DNA from: a virus
IMG/VR virus record: IMGVR_UViG_3300049810_001004
Coordinates: 1 to 33,713 of that record
Strand: one strand, 5' to 3'
DNA: 33,713 bases
The notes under the pieces were generated by a model. The model saw nothing but the letters and a program-made list of their open reading frames with translations, was not told the origin of the DNA and did not search any database. Of the stretch, positions 2,984 to 32,296 are shown in pieces (position 1 is the stretch's first letter; every line of letters begins with the position of its first letter). The position numbers were made by a program, and so were the translations under genes.

Positions 2984-3097
2984 TTAACTATAATGTACGT
3001 GGTGAGATCTACGTCTCGCATTTAAGAATCTGCAAAGCATATCACGACGATATTTTTTGTAAAGCTTCTTAAATTGATATAGTGTAAATGAATCCAT
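2984..3097 (-). CDS. basic 37-aa micro-protein downstream of a glutamine riboswitch
   Basis: The minus strand carries a strong Shine-Dalgarno sequence, AAAAGGAGG, seven bases before an ATG that opens a 37-codon frame ending in TAA. The peptide is strongly basic (MDSFTLYQFKKLYKKYRR, then a middle with DMLCRFLNARRR) and likely helical. It has no membrane segment. It lies directly downstream of the riboswitch, matching the known 'downstream peptide' arrangement in cyanobacteria and cyanophages. In cyanobacteria this riboswitch class controls small Arg-rich proteins that bind and inactivate glutamine synthetase. A similar role here is an inference from context and charge, not from demonstrated homology. 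Confidence 0.75.
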   Translation of the reverse strand: MDSFTLYQFKKLYKKYRRDMLCRFLNARRRSHHVHYS

Positions 3098-3121
3098 ATC
3101 ACATCCTCCTTTTACAAAGAA

Positions 3122-3173
3122 TGCGTTCCTTCGGCTTTCGGCCTACTTCCGTCCTATGTTATGGATGAACGTG
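3122..3173 (-). ncRNA. glutamine riboswitch, glnA RNA type
   Basis: On the minus strand the RNA reads CGTTCATCC, a short hairpin, GGACGGAAGTAGGC, a CGAAA loop, then GCCGAAGGAACGC. P1 pairs CGTTC with GAACG. P2 pairs TCC-TA with TA-GGA around a 3-base loop with one bulged A. P3 pairs GGC with GCC. The junction bases GGAAGTAGGC and CGAAGGAACG match the conserved core of the glnA / downstream-peptide glutamine aptamers. The strong Shine-Dalgarno sequence of the 37-aa gene begins about 15 bases after P1 closes. Cyanobacterial members of this class that have been studied raise expression when glutamine binds. Confidence 0.85.
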
Positions 3174-3176
3174 CTT

Positions 3177-3184
3177 TTATTTAG
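3177..3184 (-). promoter_or_regulatory. late-type promoter box before the riboswitch
   Basis: The minus strand reads CTAAATAA here, one base from T4-like late boxes (NATAAATA), and it ends five bases before riboswitch helix P1. A start about six bases downstream would put the transcript end right at P1. The same CTAAATA core recurs at 15770 and 19853. A sigma70-type -10 (TATGCT, minus 3188-3183) overlaps it, but no -35 is recognisable. Confidence 0.4.
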
Positions 3185-3498: not shown

Positions 3499-3644
3499 AC
3501 TGTTATCAATGTCAAACTGAATTAATCGTAGGCGGTGACCACGATTGTGAAGAAGACGAAGATCATTTAATTGTAACTAACCTAAGTTGTCCTAAATGCG
3601 ACTCACTGGTTTATGTATATTGGGGATCTAAAGAAGATAAATGA
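3495..3644 (+). CDS. 49-aa zinc-ribbon-like protein
   Basis: Two Cys pairs frame the protein: CYQC at residues 3-6 and CPKC at 32-35, with an acidic loop (DCEEDEDH) between them. The spacing fits a small zinc ribbon, a fold phages use for nucleic-acid binding or for capturing host transcription factors. It overlaps its neighbours by four bases on both sides, so it is translated within the same polycistron. There is no further clue to its partner. Confidence 0.6.
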   Translation: MNCYQCQTELIVGGDHDCEEDEDHLIVTNLSCPKCDSLVYVYWGSKEDK

Positions 3645-4003
3645 AATACTTTACTAGAAAAATGATAGCCCATAAAGATTTAAACAGTAACGGAACTCTT
3701 TTTGGAGGCAGAGTACTAGATTGGATTGATGAAGAAGCATACATTTATTGTAGTTGTCAACTTAATAATGATAGAGTTGTAACAAGAAGCATGAGTAATA
3801 TTGATTTTAAGCATAGTGCAATAAGAGGAGATATTATTGAAATAGGAATGGAAACAGTTAGTATAGGAAGAACTAGTATTACAATTAAATGTGATGTAAG
3901 AAATAAACGTACAGAAGCAACAATTACAAGTGTAGACGAAATTGTATTTGTTAATTTAGGTCCAGACGGAAAACCAGCAAGACACGGAGTAGAAAATGGA
4001 TAA
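3641..4003 (+). CDS. hotdog-fold acyl-CoA thioesterase
   Basis: This 120-aa single-hotdog protein has the YciA/ACOT-type signature HKDLNSNGTLFGGRVLDWID at residues 11-30. D30 sits where family members carry the catalytic acid. SMSNIDFKHSAIRGDIIEI follows as the second conserved strand region, and the protein ends near the usual length for the family. It would hydrolyse acyl-CoA thioesters in the cytoplasm, perhaps to adjust host membrane lipids or CoA pools. It overlaps genes on both sides within the small-gene operon. Substrate chain length cannot be inferred. Confidence 0.8.
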   Translation: MKYFTRKMIAHKDLNSNGTLFGGRVLDWIDEEAYIYCSCQLNNDRVVTRSMSNIDFKHSAIRGDIIEIGMETVSIGRTSITIKCDVRNKRTEATITSVDEIVFVNLGPDGKPARHGVENG

Positions 4004-7842: not shown

Positions 7843-7882
7843 ATTGGTATCTTTAGTTGGAATAACCGATATACATAAGTGT

Positions 7883-8323
7883 ATGTTTATTCGTAACGTT
7901 GAACACCTGTTGACAGGATTTGTGTTTTTATTAGTAGGAACGTTCTTCGGAGCATACGGATTACTCTTTTACGAAACAGGAACAATAGAAGAAATGGGTC
8001 CAGGGTGGTTTCCTTTCTTTATTAGTCTTGGTTTAATAGTACTAGGTGTAATACAAGTGTTAAGATCTATAGCCACAACAACATACGGTGTTGTTAGTTT
8101 TGAGATTGCTAGACCTATTTTTATCACAGCATTGATTATAGGAATGTCTTATGCTTGGCCGTATATTGGTGCCGCTACTGCATTGGGATTAATAATGAGT
8201 GGTAGTGGATTACTTAATCCGAAATATGAACTCAAATGGTTTCTAGTAAGTTGGCTTTTTATTATAGCACTACTAGTGGCATTTAAATATGGCTTAGGAA
8301 TGAGTGTTGTAATATGGAACTAG
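7883..8323 (+). CDS. TctB family small subunit of a tripartite tricarboxylate transporter
   Basis: The 146-aa protein has four hydrophobic helices. It starts FIRNVEHLLTGFVFLLVGTF and then carries ETGTIEEMGPGWFPFFISLG, whose G-(T/P)-x-x-x-MGPG-(W/Y)-FP motif is diagnostic of TctB. TctB is the small membrane subunit that pairs with TctA to import carboxylates using an ion gradient. An upstream TTG frame extends to 7844, but the first ATG at 7883 gives the usual N-terminus. The gene overlaps tctA by 10 bases. No periplasmic TctC binding protein is encoded nearby. Confidence 0.85.
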   Translation: MFIRNVEHLLTGFVFLLVGTFFGAYGLLFYETGTIEEMGPGWFPFFISLGLIVLGVIQVLRSIATTTYGVVSFEIARPIFITALIIGMSYAWPYIGAATALGLIMSGSGLLNPKYELKWFLVSWLFIIALLVAFKYGLGMSVVIWN

Positions 8324-9777
8324 TATACTTAGGAATTGAAACGGTCTTTTCCAATTACACTTGGCTGTACTGTATCTTTGGTATTGTACTAGGAACACTT
8401 GTAGGTGTATTACCAGGGCTTGGTCCTACTGCTACAATTAGTATGCTACTACCAGTAACATACGGACTTGGTCCAATACCAAGTATTATAATGTTAGCAG
8501 GAATATACTACGGATCACAATACGGCGGAAGCACTACTGCAATATTACTAAACACACCTGGCGAGAGTAGTGCAGTAATGACTTGCATAGACGGAAACAA
8601 AATGACTAGAAAAGGCAAAGCAGGACCGGCAATATTTGCCGCAGGCTTTAGTTCTTTTATTGCTGGTGTGTTTGCTACGATACTATTGGTAACGTTATCA
8701 CCTATGCTAAGTGTACTTGCATTAAAGTTTGGACCAGCAGAGTATTGTGCATTGATAGGTTTGGGCTTTTTAAGTGTTGGCATATTAACAACAGGAGATA
8801 TTTTTAAAGGGATAGGCATGTGCTTTATTGGTGTGCTTATAGGAACTATAGGAACAGATATACAAACCGGGGTAATACGTTTTGCGTTCTTTGATGAACT
8901 AGAAGACGGTATATCGTTTCCTATTGTTGCTATTGGATTATTTGCATTTGCGGAGATCATTAAGAACATAACTAAAGATGAAGCAATGCAACTATACAAA
9001 GGAACTATTCAACTATTTCCAAGTAAAGAAGAATTCAAACGTATTATTCCACCAAGTATAAGAGGATCCTTTATTGGATCTTTCCTTGGACTAATCCCAG
9101 GAGGCAGTAGTACTATTAGTTCTTATGCGGCCTATGCTGTAGACAAGAAGTATGGCAATAAAGATGCTGAATACGGTGAAGGTGCTATTGAAGGTGTAGC
9201 CGCTCCTGAGAGTGCAAACAATGCCGCAAGTCAAACAGGCTTTATTCCATTGTTGTCATTGGGCATTCCGGAAAATGCTACAATGGCACTAATGCTAGGT
9301 GCATTGTTGCTAACAGGTATTGTACCCGGACCAGATATTGTTAGTAGAGAACCTGAACTGTTTTGGGGACTGGCAATTAGCATGTTGTTTGGTAATTTAC
9401 TGTTGGTGATACTTAACATTCCTTTTATTAAGATATGGGTAACAGTATTGCGTATTCCTTACAATACATTGTATCCTATCATAATTGCAATTTGTTGTAT
9501 TGGCATTTACTCAATTAATAGCAATGTAAATGATGTTGTGATAACTGCCGTGCTTGGACTTGCAGGTTACATATGTTTAATGTTACGATTAGAAGTAGCA
9601 CCGTTGATGTTAGGACTTATACTAGGTCCTATGCTAGAAGAATATTTTAGACGAGCAATGATGTTTAGCGACGGATCGTTTATGATTTTTGTAGATCGTC
9701 CTATTGCATTCGCACTAATACTTTGTGCAGGTGTATTAGGAGCATACGGACTCTATAACACGTTAAGAAATAAGTAA
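8314..9777 (+). CDS. TctA family large subunit of a tripartite tricarboxylate transporter
   Basis: This 487-aa protein has about 11-12 membrane helices. GVLPGLGPTATISMLLPVTY near residue 30 is the first TctA signature. It is followed by GGSTTAILLNTPGESSAV and, in the second half, the mirrored GLIPGGSSTISSY and PLLSLGIPENATMALMLGAL, which together form the inverted-repeat transport core. The length and motif order look complete, with no frameshift or missing segment. It would work with TctB in the inner membrane. The substrate is normally captured by TctC, so here host-encoded TctC proteins would be needed or another mode used. It is followed after four bases by the sulfotransferase-like pair. 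Confidence 0.9.
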   Translation: MELVYLGIETVFSNYTWLYCIFGIVLGTLVGVLPGLGPTATISMLLPVTYGLGPIPSIIMLAGIYYGSQYGGSTTAILLNTPGESSAVMTCIDGNKMTRKGKAGPAIFAAGFSSFIAGVFATILLVTLSPMLSVLALKFGPAEYCALIGLGFLSVGILTTGDIFKGIGMCFIGVLIGTIGTDIQTGVIRFAFFDELEDGISFPIVAIGLFAFAEIIKNITKDEAMQLYKGTIQLFPSKEEFKRIIPPSIRGSFIGSFLGLIPGGSSTISSYAAYAVDKKYGNKDAEYGEGAIEGVAAPESANNAASQTGFIPLLSLGIPENATMALMLGALLLTGIVPGPDIVSREPELFWGLAISMLFGNLLLVILNIPFIKIWVTVLRIPYNTLYPIIIAICCIGIYSINSNVNDVVITAVLGLAGYICLMLRLEVAPLMLGLILGPMLEEYFRRAMMFSDGSFMIFVDRPIAFALILCAGVLGAYGLYNTLRNK

Positions 9778-12149: not shown

Positions 12150-12196
12150 GACGGGGTTTGGTAAGTACATATGCACCGGCCAACCAAAGGAATGAA

Positions 12197-13243
12197 ATGC
12201 AATATAACGAACAACAATCACAATCTAACAGAAAAGTAATTAAAATTAAAAAAGCCAGCAATGCATTTATTATGTTTTGGCATCTAACTGACTTCTGTAA
12301 CTATAACTGTACTTACTGCCCTCCATGGCTAAAAGCCGGAGATTATCATATGGGCCGTAAACCTGGACATCCTACTAATGAAGAAATTGATATCTTCTTA
12401 CATAGATTGCAATATGATATATTAAAAGACAATCGACGATCACATATTATGCTATCTGGAGGAGAACCAACAGTACATAAAAGGTTTGGAGAAATAGTTC
12501 ATAGGCTATCAGTTGATATGGGTAGTGATGTATGTATTACTACTAATCTAAGTCGACCATTAAAGTTTTGGGAAGGGCTAGAAACATTACCTGCTGGAAT
12601 GAATATATCATTACATCATGAAACAACAAACATGGATCAGATTAATGAAAAAATGGAATTCCTTGTTCCTGCTGGAGTACAGACTCAATTTAACTTAGTT
12701 TGCGATCCAGGTAACTGGGAAAAAGGAACTATGGAAATGTTTAATGGTTTAGATCCTAAATTTCAAAAGTATATACATGCTTGGCCTTTACACGACAATA
12801 GTCATAAAAGAAATAGACACATCTACGAATATAGTGCAGAGCAGAGTAGATGGATGAAAGAACGTAACATAATTTATAGAGCAACTCGTAAAAGAGAAAA
12901 GTCTAAATTTAAACAAGAAAACTCTTTTGTATATTTTAGTGACGGAAGTACTTCTACTATTAAGCAAGTTAGCGAAACAACATTTAAACAAGGTGGACAA
13001 AACTGGTTTAATGGATGGAAGTGCAGAGCTGGGCAACAAGCAATTGATGTTAATTTTAGTGGCGAGGTATGGTCTAGTGTATGTAAGTTTGTCAAGCTCG
13101 GTCGTATAGATGATTTTAAGTTATTAGAAGATGCAGTAGTATGTAATAGAGACATTTGTATTCATCCTATGGATTTAGGATTAGATAAAATTGCGCCAGG
13201 GGAAGCGGAGTTTGATACCTGGGGAAAGTTGCTAGTAGGTTAA
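12197..13243 (+). CDS. radical SAM enzyme
   Basis: The 348-aa protein has the radical SAM [4Fe-4S] motif CNYNCTYC (C34, C38, C41) after WHLTDF, the SAM-binding MLSGGEPTVHKRF near residue 92, and NISLHHETT on a later barrel strand. Extra cysteines in GWKCRAG, SVCKFV and VCNRDICIHP in the last quarter resemble a SPASM or twitch auxiliary cluster. Such enzymes often modify peptides or RNA. The start at 12197 has AAAGGA six bases upstream; the frame extends further to 12158 but without a good ribosome binding site. It is fed by the 11996 promoter through a structured leader. The substrate is unknown. Confidence 0.85.
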   Translation: MQYNEQQSQSNRKVIKIKKASNAFIMFWHLTDFCNYNCTYCPPWLKAGDYHMGRKPGHPTNEEIDIFLHRLQYDILKDNRRSHIMLSGGEPTVHKRFGEIVHRLSVDMGSDVCITTNLSRPLKFWEGLETLPAGMNISLHHETTNMDQINEKMEFLVPAGVQTQFNLVCDPGNWEKGTMEMFNGLDPKFQKYIHAWPLHDNSHKRNRHIYEYSAEQSRWMKERNIIYRATRKREKSKFKQENSFVYFSDGSTSTIKQVSETTFKQGGQNWFNGWKCRAGQQAIDVNFSGEVWSSVCKFVKLGRIDDFKLLEDAVVCNRDICIHPMDLGLDKIAPGEAEFDTWGKLLVG

Positions 13244-26697: not shown

Positions 26698-28017
26698 ATG
26701 GCATTTTGCAGGTTACCCTGGCAGGGATTAATGATCACTCCACTTGGCGACTTTAGACTCTGTGCATTAACTAACGGGTTAGATTACAATCAGGGCATGT
26801 CGACAGATGAAGATGGCAAGCTCATGAACATAATGACTCATTCCCCAAATGAAGGTTTAAACGGAAAGTGGCATCGTGAAGTAAGAAAGAACGATGTGCA
26901 ATCTGATGGCTCTTGGCATGACATATGTAGTTGTTGCAGAGATAGAGAAATTGCTACTGGTAGTGACATTAAACACATTGCCGCTAGTAGAAGACAAAGT
27001 ATGGAACGTAGAAATCCTAGCACACATATTGTTGATGGTAGCACTTATAAAGACGTTAAAATGGACAAAGACGGATATGTAGATTGGATGCCTACTACAC
27101 TAGATATTAGATTTGGTAACCTGTGTAATATGGCTTGTGTACAATGTGGACCTAACTATAGTAACAAATGGTATGAGGACTGGGTAGGCTTTTATGGAGA
27201 AAATGCTCCATGGGGTTTTGGACGTAGCAGACAACGTTTATCTAGAAACGAGCATAATAAACTTGTTAACAAACAAGAAGTAAAATGGTGGGAGACACAA
27301 ACATGGTGGGACAAATTTGACCAGATGCTTCCTAACTTAGAACACATTTACCTCACAGGAGGCGAACCTATGATTGTTCCTGCACATGATGAGATGCTTG
27401 ATCGTATTATTGCTTCAGGTCGTGCTAAAGATGTTTACTTAGACTACGACACTAACCTAAGTGTTATTAATACTAAGTTAGCAAAACGTTGGGACCACTT
27501 CAAGCATGTAGAGATTGCTGGTAGTATTGATGCAAGTGAAGACAATTATGAATTTGTAAGACATGGTGGTAAGTGGGAAAAGTTTGATGAAAACGTTACC
27601 CGTATTAAAGAATTTGAGAAGAACGGAGTTGTCAAACTTTATAGACTTACTGCTTGTATGCAACCTACAACAATATTTTCTATATTACAAACTGAACAAT
27701 ATTGTATGAACAAAGGTATTCCGTTTCAAATAAGATTTGTAGATAGTCCTAAGATGCATAGTATAATGAGCTTACCTCGTTCAGCTAAAGAAGAAATTAT
27801 AGAGATATATAGTAAAGTAGATACTATTACATCGAGACTTGTAGTTGAATGGACTACTGATCACTTAGATGAGAAATACGAAAGTCCAGAAGATGTTAAA
27901 CGTTATGTAAGAATTATGAATTATCTAGATACATCTCGTGGTACAGACTGGAAAGTACAGACAAAAGGTACATGGGAAATGCTAAGTAAGCATTGTAACT
28001 TAGGAGAATTAAAATAA
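26698..28017 (+). CDS. N-terminal-twitch radical SAM enzyme (first of two)
   Basis: The 439-aa protein starts FCRLPWQGLMITPLGDFRLC, and CSCCRDRE follows near residue 80. These N-terminal cysteines resemble the auxiliary cluster of twitch/SPASM domains, placed before the core instead of after it. The core motif CNMACVQC is at C143, C147 and C150, then HIYLTGGEPMIVP provides SAM contacts, and LDYDTNLS is a later barrel strand. The C-terminus ends LSKHCNLGE with another Cys. A close relative is on the opposite strand at 32271. It lies between the virion block and the endolysin and is one base-overlapped with the latter. Likely a peptide or protein modification; substrate unknown. Confidence 0.85.
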   Translation: MAFCRLPWQGLMITPLGDFRLCALTNGLDYNQGMSTDEDGKLMNIMTHSPNEGLNGKWHREVRKNDVQSDGSWHDICSCCRDREIATGSDIKHIAASRRQSMERRNPSTHIVDGSTYKDVKMDKDGYVDWMPTTLDIRFGNLCNMACVQCGPNYSNKWYEDWVGFYGENAPWGFGRSRQRLSRNEHNKLVNKQEVKWWETQTWWDKFDQMLPNLEHIYLTGGEPMIVPAHDEMLDRIIASGRAKDVYLDYDTNLSVINTKLAKRWDHFKHVEIAGSIDASEDNYEFVRHGGKWEKFDENVTRIKEFEKNGVVKLYRLTACMQPTTIFSILQTEQYCMNKGIPFQIRFVDSPKMHSIMSLPRSAKEEIIEIYSKVDTITSRLVVEWTTDHLDEKYESPEDVKRYVRIMNYLDTSRGTDWKVQTKGTWEMLSKHCNLGELK

Positions 28018-30244: not shown

Positions 30245-31512
30245 AAGTTGGATTTATTGGACTAGGTAAACTAGGAATGCCTTGTGCAGAAGTTATGGCA
30301 GAAAAATATGATGTTACAGGATACGATATTGCAAAAGTATCTTCGATTAAAGTTAGTGTAAGACATACTATTAAAGATACTGTAAAAGATAGAGACATTA
30401 TATTTGTTGCTGTACCTACTCCACATGATCCTGCTTACGGAGGAAGTACTCCAATTGCAGATAAAGAACCAAAAGACTTTGATTATAGTATAGTTAAAAG
30501 AGCATTAGATGAAATTGATCTTCATGTAAACAAAACACAGTTAGTAGTTCTTATTAGTACAGTATTACCTGGAACAGTTAGAAGTGAATTAGTAGACCAT
30601 ATTAAACATGCTCGTTTTATTTACAATCCTTATTTGATTGCTATGGGTAGTGTTGCCTGGGATATGGTAAATCCTGAATGTTTAATTATAGGAACAGAAG
30701 ACGGAACAGAAACTGGTGATGCTAAAATACTAGTTGATTTTTATAAACCTTTATTAGAAAACAATCCAGAAATTAATATTGGTACCTGGGACGAAGCTGA
30801 AGCAATTAAAGTTTTTTATAATACTTTTATTTCAGTTAAGATTGGTTTAGTCAATATGATACAAGACGTTGCAGAAGCAAATGGAAATATTAATGTTGAT
30901 GTTGTTACTGATGCATTAAAGAAAGCAACTCAACGTATTGTTGGTCCAAAATATATGACTGCTGGAATGGGAGACGGAGGAGCCTGCCATCCTAGAGATA
31001 ATATTGCACTACGTTTTCTTGCACAGAAATTAAATTTAGGATATGATCTATTTCATTCTATTATGCAGTCTAGAGATATGCAGGCGAAAAAAATGGCAGA
31101 ACGTTTACTTGAACTATCAACAGAATATAACTTGCCTATTGTTATACATGGTCGTGCATATAAGCCAGGAGTTGAATATACAGTTGGTAGTTATAGCGAA
31201 CTAGTAGCACAATATGCCGCACACGAATTAAATCAAGTATACTATGTTGATCCATTAACTGGTGACAACTTACCTAAAAAGAATATGAAAGCAGTTATAT
31301 TATTAGCACACAATGAACAAGTAACATATGCTGGTACGGGTGTAAAAGCAACAGAATCAGGATATTATTTTAAGTTTGCTAAAGGTAGTATAGTTGTTGA
31401 TCCTTGGAGGACAACAAAAGAGATTCCAGGTTGTGCTGTTGTACACTACGGTAATCCTAGAAAGATATGGTCTGCTCAAAGTCAAAGGAAGAAATTTCTT
31501 GGTCTGTTTTAA
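30241..31512 (+). CDS. UDP-glucose/GDP-mannose dehydrogenase family enzyme
   Basis: The 423-aa protein begins MKVGFIGLGKLGMP, the NAD-binding Rossmann loop. VAVPTPHDP and ISTVLPGT follow as family motifs. EAIKVFYNTFISVKI carries the conserved E-x-x-K-x-x-x-N helix, and MGDGGACHPRDN contains the catalytic Cys (C249) in place of the usual GFGGSCFPKD. The C-terminal third has HGRAYKPGVEYTVGS, the third family domain start. The enzyme would oxidise the C6 hydroxyl of a nucleotide sugar to a uronic acid. The 30226 ATG in frame would add five residues, but 30241 fits the fold and overlaps the previous gene by four bases. Its 3' end overlaps the opposite-strand pyrB by 56 bases. Confidence 0.85.
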   Translation: MKVGFIGLGKLGMPCAEVMAEKYDVTGYDIAKVSSIKVSVRHTIKDTVKDRDIIFVAVPTPHDPAYGGSTPIADKEPKDFDYSIVKRALDEIDLHVNKTQLVVLISTVLPGTVRSELVDHIKHARFIYNPYLIAMGSVAWDMVNPECLIIGTEDGTETGDAKILVDFYKPLLENNPEINIGTWDEAEAIKVFYNTFISVKIGLVNMIQDVAEANGNINVDVVTDALKKATQRIVGPKYMTAGMGDGGACHPRDNIALRFLAQKLNLGYDLFHSIMQSRDMQAKKMAERLLELSTEYNLPIVIHGRAYKPGVEYTVGSYSELVAQYAAHELNQVYYVDPLTGDNLPKKNMKAVILLAHNEQVTYAGTGVKATESGYYFKFAKGSIVVDPWRTTKEIPGCAVVHYGNPRKIWSAQSQRKKFLGLF

Positions 31513-32296
31513 GAAGTAATACTAATAGAGCCATTCTAATATATAATCCATTTTCCATTTGCTCAAAATATTTTGCTCTTGGATCTTTATCAAACCAAAC
31601 AGGTATTTCTTCGTTGCGTGGGAACGGATGCATAACTATTGCATCTTCTGGTATGTGATGTATATGTTCTTTCTTCATACTGTAACTACCACTACTTCCT
31701 CTTTCTTTTTGTACTCTCGTTAGATAGTAAACATCACTCTTTGGCCATATACTCTTATCGTATGTATCTATAAAATGCTTTTTGCAATTAGGTAATGCTT
31801 TATCTAAACTATGTACTGTTCTGCCGTTTTCTATATCTCCAATAAATGTAATTGTAAGATCTTTGATCTTGTTAAATTTTTTATAGATTGTATACAAATC
31901 TAAAAGTGTTTGTGTAGGATGTTCTCCATTGCCATCACCTGCGTTTATTATAGGAACCTTACTTACTTTTGATGCTATTGATGCATCACCTGCTTGTTGA
32001 CTTCTCAATACAATTAAGTCGCAATAGTTAGACATTGTAATAATAGTATCTTCTAGATTTTCTCCTTTAGACACCGAACTATAGTTTACATCATTAATTG
32101 AAATTACTTGTCCGCCAAGTTTATACATTGCACTAGCAAAAGAACTGCTAGTTCTTGTACTTGGTTCGTAAAATAAGTTAGTTATTATTTTACCTTTTAA
32201 ACTTTCTTGAAATTCTGTAGGAGCTGACTTTATATTATTTGCTAATTTAAATATTGAAATAAAATCAATTTTATTCAGTTGAACTAGGTGTTGCAT
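31457..32296 (-). CDS. pyrB: aspartate carbamoyltransferase catalytic chain, shortened
   Basis: All catalytic landmarks of PyrB are present in the 279-aa protein: YEPSTRTSSSF (residues 43-53) for carbamoyl phosphate, the S-x-x-K loop (SSVSKGENLEDT), LRSQQ, HPTQTLLDLYT, NGRTVHSL, YYLTRVQKERG and MHPFPRNEE. It would make carbamoyl-aspartate, the first committed step of pyrimidine synthesis. It is about 30 residues shorter than E. coli PyrB, mainly between GRTVHS and TRVQKER (about 20 fewer) and in the loop after TRVQKER. Its start overlaps the upstream radical SAM gene by 26 bases. A phage copy would raise nucleotide supply during replication. Missing regulatory subunit suggests no allosteric control. 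Confidence 0.9.
   Translation of the reverse strand: MQHLVQLNKIDFISIFKLANNIKSAPTEFQESLKGKIITNLFYEPSTRTSSSFASAMYKLGGQVISINDVNYSSVSKGENLEDTIITMSNYCDLIVLRSQQAGDASIASKVSKVPIINAGDGNGEHPTQTLLDLYTIYKKFNKIKDLTITFIGDIENGRTVHSLDKALPNCKKHFIDTYDKSIWPKSDVYYLTRVQKERGSSGSYSMKKEHIHHIPEDAIVMHPFPRNEEIPVWFDKDPRAKYFEQMENGLYIRMALLVLLLKTDQEISSFDFEQTISF

Follow-up and report, generated by a model that had tools for sequence, protein, structure and literature searches.

What does a virus gain from a short minus-strand unit that appears to join a glutamine-sensing RNA to a tiny basic protein? The unit lies in IMG/VR record IMGVR_UViG_3300049810_001004, whose 33,713 nucleotides are referred to here as the window. An initial annotation, made by reading the sequence alone, had described a stand-alone, phage-borne glutamine riboswitch in front of a 37-residue peptide, and had proposed that this peptide resembles the factors that inactivate glutamine synthetase (GS) in cyanobacteria. 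The questions are therefore whether the RNA and the peptide are real, in which direction the switch works, and what the peptide might do.

A single sequence in the window matches Rfam: a type-1 glutamine riboswitch aptamer (glnA motif, RF01739) at 3173-3120 on the minus strand, with 55.5 bits where the gathering score is 35 (E 9e-10 over the whole window). In the alignment, P1, P2, and P3, the CGGAAGUA core, and the C that follows P1 (C60) are all present, as judged from the invariant columns. P1 is formed by CGTTC (3171-3167) and GAACG (3128-3124), and in a residue numbering matched to the crystal construct quoted in PMC5393176 the equivalents of G22 and G23 are 3150 and 3149, and that of C60 is 3123. 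The Downstream-peptide motif (type 2, RF01704), a search for which had also been suggested, had no match in the window even at E ≤ 10. A 37-codon frame, MDSFTLYQFKKLYKKYRRDMLCRFLNARRRSHHVHYS, follows on the same strand at an aptamer-to-frame distance of 25 nt, running from an ATG at 3097 to a stop at 2984, led by a Shine-Dalgarno (SD) sequence, AGGAGG, at 3110-3105, and encoding a peptide with a net charge of +8. The unit is closed by a perfect stem of 8 bp (2971-2950; -12.4 kcal/mol, z -5.6) directly beyond the stop of a convergent gene at 1874-2947; this stem-loop is common to the unit and the convergent gene and is assigned to neither strand in particular. The initial annotation is thus upheld in its riboswitch, in its SD-led basic micro-peptide, and in the stand-alone arrangement of box, aptamer, SD, frame, and stem-loop on the minus strand; the tie to host nitrogen assimilation that it suggested is likely as well. 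Its terminator hairpin fared less well: the stem is stable, but neither strand has a T-run beside it, so that the label is only partly supported.

The late-type promoter box was seen where it had been noted, although the match is inexact. The sequence GCTAAATA (3185-3178, minus strand) agrees with the T4-late motif TATAAATA at six of eight positions and lies 14 nt before the aptamer, the same position at which TATAAATA boxes cluster in related phage loci. A TAAATA core occurs at -12 or -13 in 49 of 179 viral aptamer loci, compared with 3 of 161 host loci, and is rare at other positions; late motifs with at least seven of eight matches are found in 42% of loci vs. 16% of shuffles. This clustering in viral and not in host loci suggests that the phage units are probably transcribed late. 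The leader of a phage unit probably starts almost at the aptamer itself.

RNA folding places the SD region of most leaders in a helix with the bases that follow P1. In the window this SD-sequestering stem spans 3123-3102 on the minus strand, with CATTCTTT (3123-3116) facing GGAGGATG (3109-3102). Covariation supports it: among 51 distinct leaders, the two informative pairs are formed in 50 and 51, where permutation yields 38 and 41, in a test whose register is set only by the GGAG motif and two outer bases and whose counts ignore the kinship of the leaders. The first base of the stem is C3123, the equivalent of C60 in the crystal structure, and this residue takes part in the closing pair of the SD stem in 78 of 108 viral and 50 of 53 host leaders. 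The G23-C60 pair forms only when glutamine is bound (PMC11477058; PMC5393176), so a leader should be unable to bind its ligand and form the closing pair of its SD stem at the same time, the pattern expected of an ON switch. Without glutamine, the 3' tail of the aptamer, from the C60 equivalent on, would pair with the SD region and block translation; bound glutamine would engage that C in pairing with G23 at the base of P1, and the SD stem would open, although folds predicted with P1 forced retain this stem. The opposite direction, in which glutamine stabilizes a P1 stacked on the SD stem, keeps the SD closed, and leaves the peptide to be made when glutamine is scarce, draws on the fact that P1 and the SD stem adjoin directly and are both present in predicted folds, and on an alternative fold, found for the window only, that pairs the SD region with the 5' strand of the aptamer. 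We regard it as improbable, because the closing pair competes for the C60 equivalent with a ligand-dependent pair in most leaders and because the type-1 and type-2 switches of cyanobacteria are reported to be ON (PMC6316151). The SD stem fits a glutamine-ON translational switch, and we infer both glutamine binding and the ON direction for the window RNA.

The frame is under selection. Its closest relative, 61% identical (MDSFTLYQFKRLYKQYRRDM...), lies in another phage contig (L339, IMGVR_UViG_3300046532_001321), and dN/dS between the two is 0.49; pooled over three pairs of the window group it is 0.25, and in four other peptide groups it ranges from 0.28 to 0.46. Further direct relatives (L306, L326/L328, L313, and L355) were, like L339, found by a pattern search for LYQ behind the aptamer. 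The possibility that the RNA is the functional product, and the frame a leader or non-functional, gains something from the shortness of the frame and from its first 30 bases, which are identical in the window and L339 and may reflect a constraint on the RNA. It is nevertheless very improbable, since dN/dS falls below 0.5 in five groups, an SD is in place, residues are conserved across distant phages and hosts, and no large gene is read after the frame. The window and L339 also have 24 of 25 leader bases in common, yet they share no sequence after the stop of the frame, and no window protein matched the part of L339 that was compared; the unit looks like a cassette that has moved between unrelated phages. 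In L339, the unit is adjoined by apparent genes of a queuosine/deazapurine pathway. AlphaFold predicts a single helix over residues 3-32 of the window peptide (mean pLDDT 84). An argument from amphipathicity was dropped, as the helical moment does not exceed that of shuffles. Comparison with solved structures found no kinship for the peptide, and tblastn found no relatives of it in INPHARED.

Units of this kind are frequent in marine phages. An unbiased pattern scan of IMG/VR for the aptamer by itself found at least 120 contigs. Among the matches listed, 111 of the 118 aptamers with enough downstream DNA have an ATG frame of 15-110 codons, led by an SD, no more than 45 nt behind them; of the other seven, one is the upstream member of a tandem, and six, all of one class, seem to start with GTG. 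At random positions in those phage contigs such a frame occurs in 3.1% of cases, and no large gene lies directly behind a phage aptamer among the loci checked, where both this baseline and the set examined for large genes contain some ten loci taken from a scan requiring SD and ATG. The phage riboswitches nearly always precede peptides of 16 to 87 residues. These fall into several classes, and 89 of the 90 distinct peptides among the matches listed are basic overall; for the set, the median net charge is +7 and the median length 39.5. One class belongs to DUF4278 (PF14105, 1e-6), with its YRG motif; the window peptide has no match to that PirA-like model. Tandem aptamers occur in 30 of 143 phage units and in 13 of 14 genomes with chromosomal peptide units (L360-L365, L410-L417, L429-L443). 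In the cyanophages DSL-LC02 and S-CAM9 (L271 and L272), the aptamer looks interrupted, with a frame of 50-57 codons between its 5' part and a later GACTGAAGGAACG; the frame behind the interrupted aptamer in DSL-LC02 is a DUF4278 frame.

When GTDB genomes were scanned, the aptamer turned up not only in cyanobacteria but also in SAR86, SAR92, SAR116-type, Pelagibacterales-labelled, and marine Burkholderiales genomes. In four SAR116-type genomes, peptides of the form MTY..YQWK...HKILNYR are encoded between ordinary genes, in a non-phage context, with conserved gene order where two genomes could be compared; a homolog outside prophages, as expected for a host-derived auxiliary gene, is therefore found in SAR116/MED-G100-type chromosomes with conserved synteny. 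The class has 12 members, phage and host, of which four are chromosomal; every one reaches 12-27 bits with the profile of the window group, which is at the shuffle-test floor. The window peptide by itself is only weakly similar to the class (1.2 bits, p 0.2), and its link to the class runs through L339, L306, and L326. In profile-profile comparison, the window family aligns with a Burkholderiales/Melnitz-type group over 31 columns (probability 91%, E 1e-6). The family, as delineated by these sequence comparisons, is common to marine phages and the chromosomes of marine Alphaproteobacteria, and extends more distantly to Burkholderiales. At a further locus (L428, genome G437), which could be phage DNA in a metagenome-assembled genome, two riboswitch-peptide copies are fused: a single frame of 72 codons continues across the leader between them. 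The idea that the peptide replaces GlnE in hosts was dropped. A GlnE match is absent from 10 of 15 peptide-bearing genomes, but among 20 genomes of a SAR116-like family only three have the riboswitch, and most have GlnE with or without it, so that the presence of GlnE does not track the riboswitch.

The proposed kinship with cyanobacterial GS inactivating factors did not survive comparison. The NCBIfam IF7A model, which recognizes a cyanobacterial riboswitch-linked peptide at 5e-10, matched neither the window peptide nor its relatives; profile-profile comparison aligned neither the window family nor the Burkholderiales/Melnitz-type group with IF7-like proteins; and a shuffle test of the window peptide against those proteins gave p 0.19. 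That the peptide is a true IF7/IF17 member carried by a cyanophage, as the shared riboswitch class, the short IF7-like proteins behind cyanobacterial type-1 aptamers, and the small, basic character of both peptides might have suggested, is thus extremely improbable. Its relatives, moreover, are found in proteobacterial and not cyanobacterial chromosomes, and as those chromosomes belong to marine Alphaproteobacteria, a cyanobacterial host is not indicated.

In a genome submitted as Pelagibacterales SP81 (G009), glnA, amt, and a tiny basic peptide each lie behind a riboswitch of this class, which makes a peptide of this sort part of a glutamine regulon together with the enzyme and the ammonium transporter; in a second genome (G196) it precedes GS and amt. 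The G009 peptide, of the L218/L195 class, resembles the window peptide only marginally (p 0.02-0.06). Elsewhere in marine proteobacteria, type-1 aptamers also occur before gltB/gltD, amt, and GS (L135, L144, L147, L157, L163, L418, L419, L422, L423), mostly with longer spacers that suggest a different expression platform. Because the same unit occurs in marine phages and in bacterial chromosomes, once beside nitrogen-assimilation genes, it is probably a nitrogen regulator borrowed from a host.

On the model of cyanobacteria, whose glutamine switches yield small GS-inactivating proteins, the simplest function for the peptide would be that of a brake or tuner of ammonium assimilation, and a role functionally similar to that of GS inactivating factors is plausible. 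In the host, it would act by protein contact as a glutamine-induced regulator of nitrogen assimilation; through it, the phage would tune that process late in infection, when glutamine is plentiful. The target could instead lie outside nitrogen assimilation, in the ribosome, RNA polymerase, nucleic acid, or the virion, with a real peptide under the same riboswitch and glutamine as a general cue of amino-acid supply. Strong basic charge and a single predicted helix are typical of nucleic-acid binding too, and the late-type promoter positions would suit such a target, yet chromosomal relatives are under the same glutamine switch, the tiny peptide in G009 has that switch in common with glnA and amt, and the cyanobacterial products behind glutamine switches are GS inactivators or DUF4278 proteins (PMC6316151); we consider an outside target unlikely. 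We infer a target in nitrogen assimilation, and favor, with moderate confidence, a stand-alone late cassette in which a single aptamer translationally controls a helical basic peptide that serves as a host-derived regulator of nitrogen assimilation. More speculatively, marine heterotrophs may own glutamine-induced micro-protein inhibitors of ammonium assimilation that evolved apart from IF7/IF17, and many marine phages may have captured them along with the riboswitch, setting host nitrogen flux by direct glutamine sensing in late infection; we offer this broader proposal only tentatively.

The window encodes a GH19 endolysin (phrog_181, 1e-81) and phage-like nucleotide and auxiliary genes. No match and no close relative was found when 25 kb of the window and two of its proteins were compared with INPHARED, and the neighboring gene at 1892-2947, used as a probe for related phages, confirmed none. 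Positions 7844-9777 encode TctB (PF07331, 3e-7) and TctA (PF01970, 1e-143) of a tripartite tricarboxylate transporter, with no TctC seen. Auxiliary genes at 546-1577, 12158-13243, 26698-28017, 31457-32296, and 3641-4003 include those for a UvdE endonuclease, radical-SAM proteins, a short aspartate/ornithine carbamoyltransferase, and a 4HBT thioesterase.

According to one review of the field, glutamine riboswitches are confined to cyanobacteria (PMC6316151), and a pelagimyophage survey reported that it had found no riboswitches (PMC7029224). Against these accounts, we find that marine phage contigs often have glutamine riboswitches, nearly always in front of peptides that annotation is prone to overlook, and that the switches occur in several lineages of marine proteobacteria too. 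The logic of riboswitch plus small frame is already known from cyanobacteria; the peptide family, its occurrence in phages and hosts among heterotrophs, and its frequency in phages appear to be undescribed in the literature that could be searched. If the peptides control nitrogen assimilation, then phages would be using RNA to sense a host metabolite and so direct the flow of nitrogen in the host, and in streamlined marine bacteria nitrogen control would include a layer of micro-proteins.

Among known systems, the type-1 switch before gifB/IF17 in Synechocystis has the same aptamer, a small basic protein behind it, and a proposed glutamine-ON action; the window unit differs in being phage-borne, in its late-type box, and in a 37-residue peptide unrelated in sequence to IF7-type factors. 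IF7 and IF17 are themselves small and arginine-rich, and some are under a glutamine riboswitch (PMC6316151), but neither sequence nor profile comparison links them to the window peptide. The type-2 switch of marine picocyanobacteria (RF01704), an aptamer followed by a frame of 17-100 residues (PMC2864571), is arranged much as the window unit is, although the window RNA matches RF01739 instead and its peptide lacks the YRG motif of DUF4278. PirA and the DUF4278 proteins are likewise small regulators of nitrogen metabolism, the latter linked to riboswitches (PMC6316151), but the window peptide is not a DUF4278 protein. Another comparison is with the OM43 phage Melnitz (MZ577097; locus L273), which, like the window, has a type-1 aptamer in a marine phage of heterotrophs. 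Its authors assigned the glutamine switch to tmRNA (PMC9004378); the aptamer, at 46398-46446, lies 8 nt beyond the end of the Rfam tmRNA match. The aptamer is followed by GGGGAG and an SD-led 32-codon frame, MTLYQQWCYLKAQKEYRRRQKILMYFRIRLKG, at 46471-46569 (1472-1570 of L273), which is unannotated, the record having a minus-strand CDS there instead, and whose peptide is a distant relative of the window family. Pelagibacter phage Mosig has its aptamer before Mosig_00116, a basic protein of 51 residues. Both phages are in culture, and their riboswitch-peptide units are therefore open to direct testing.
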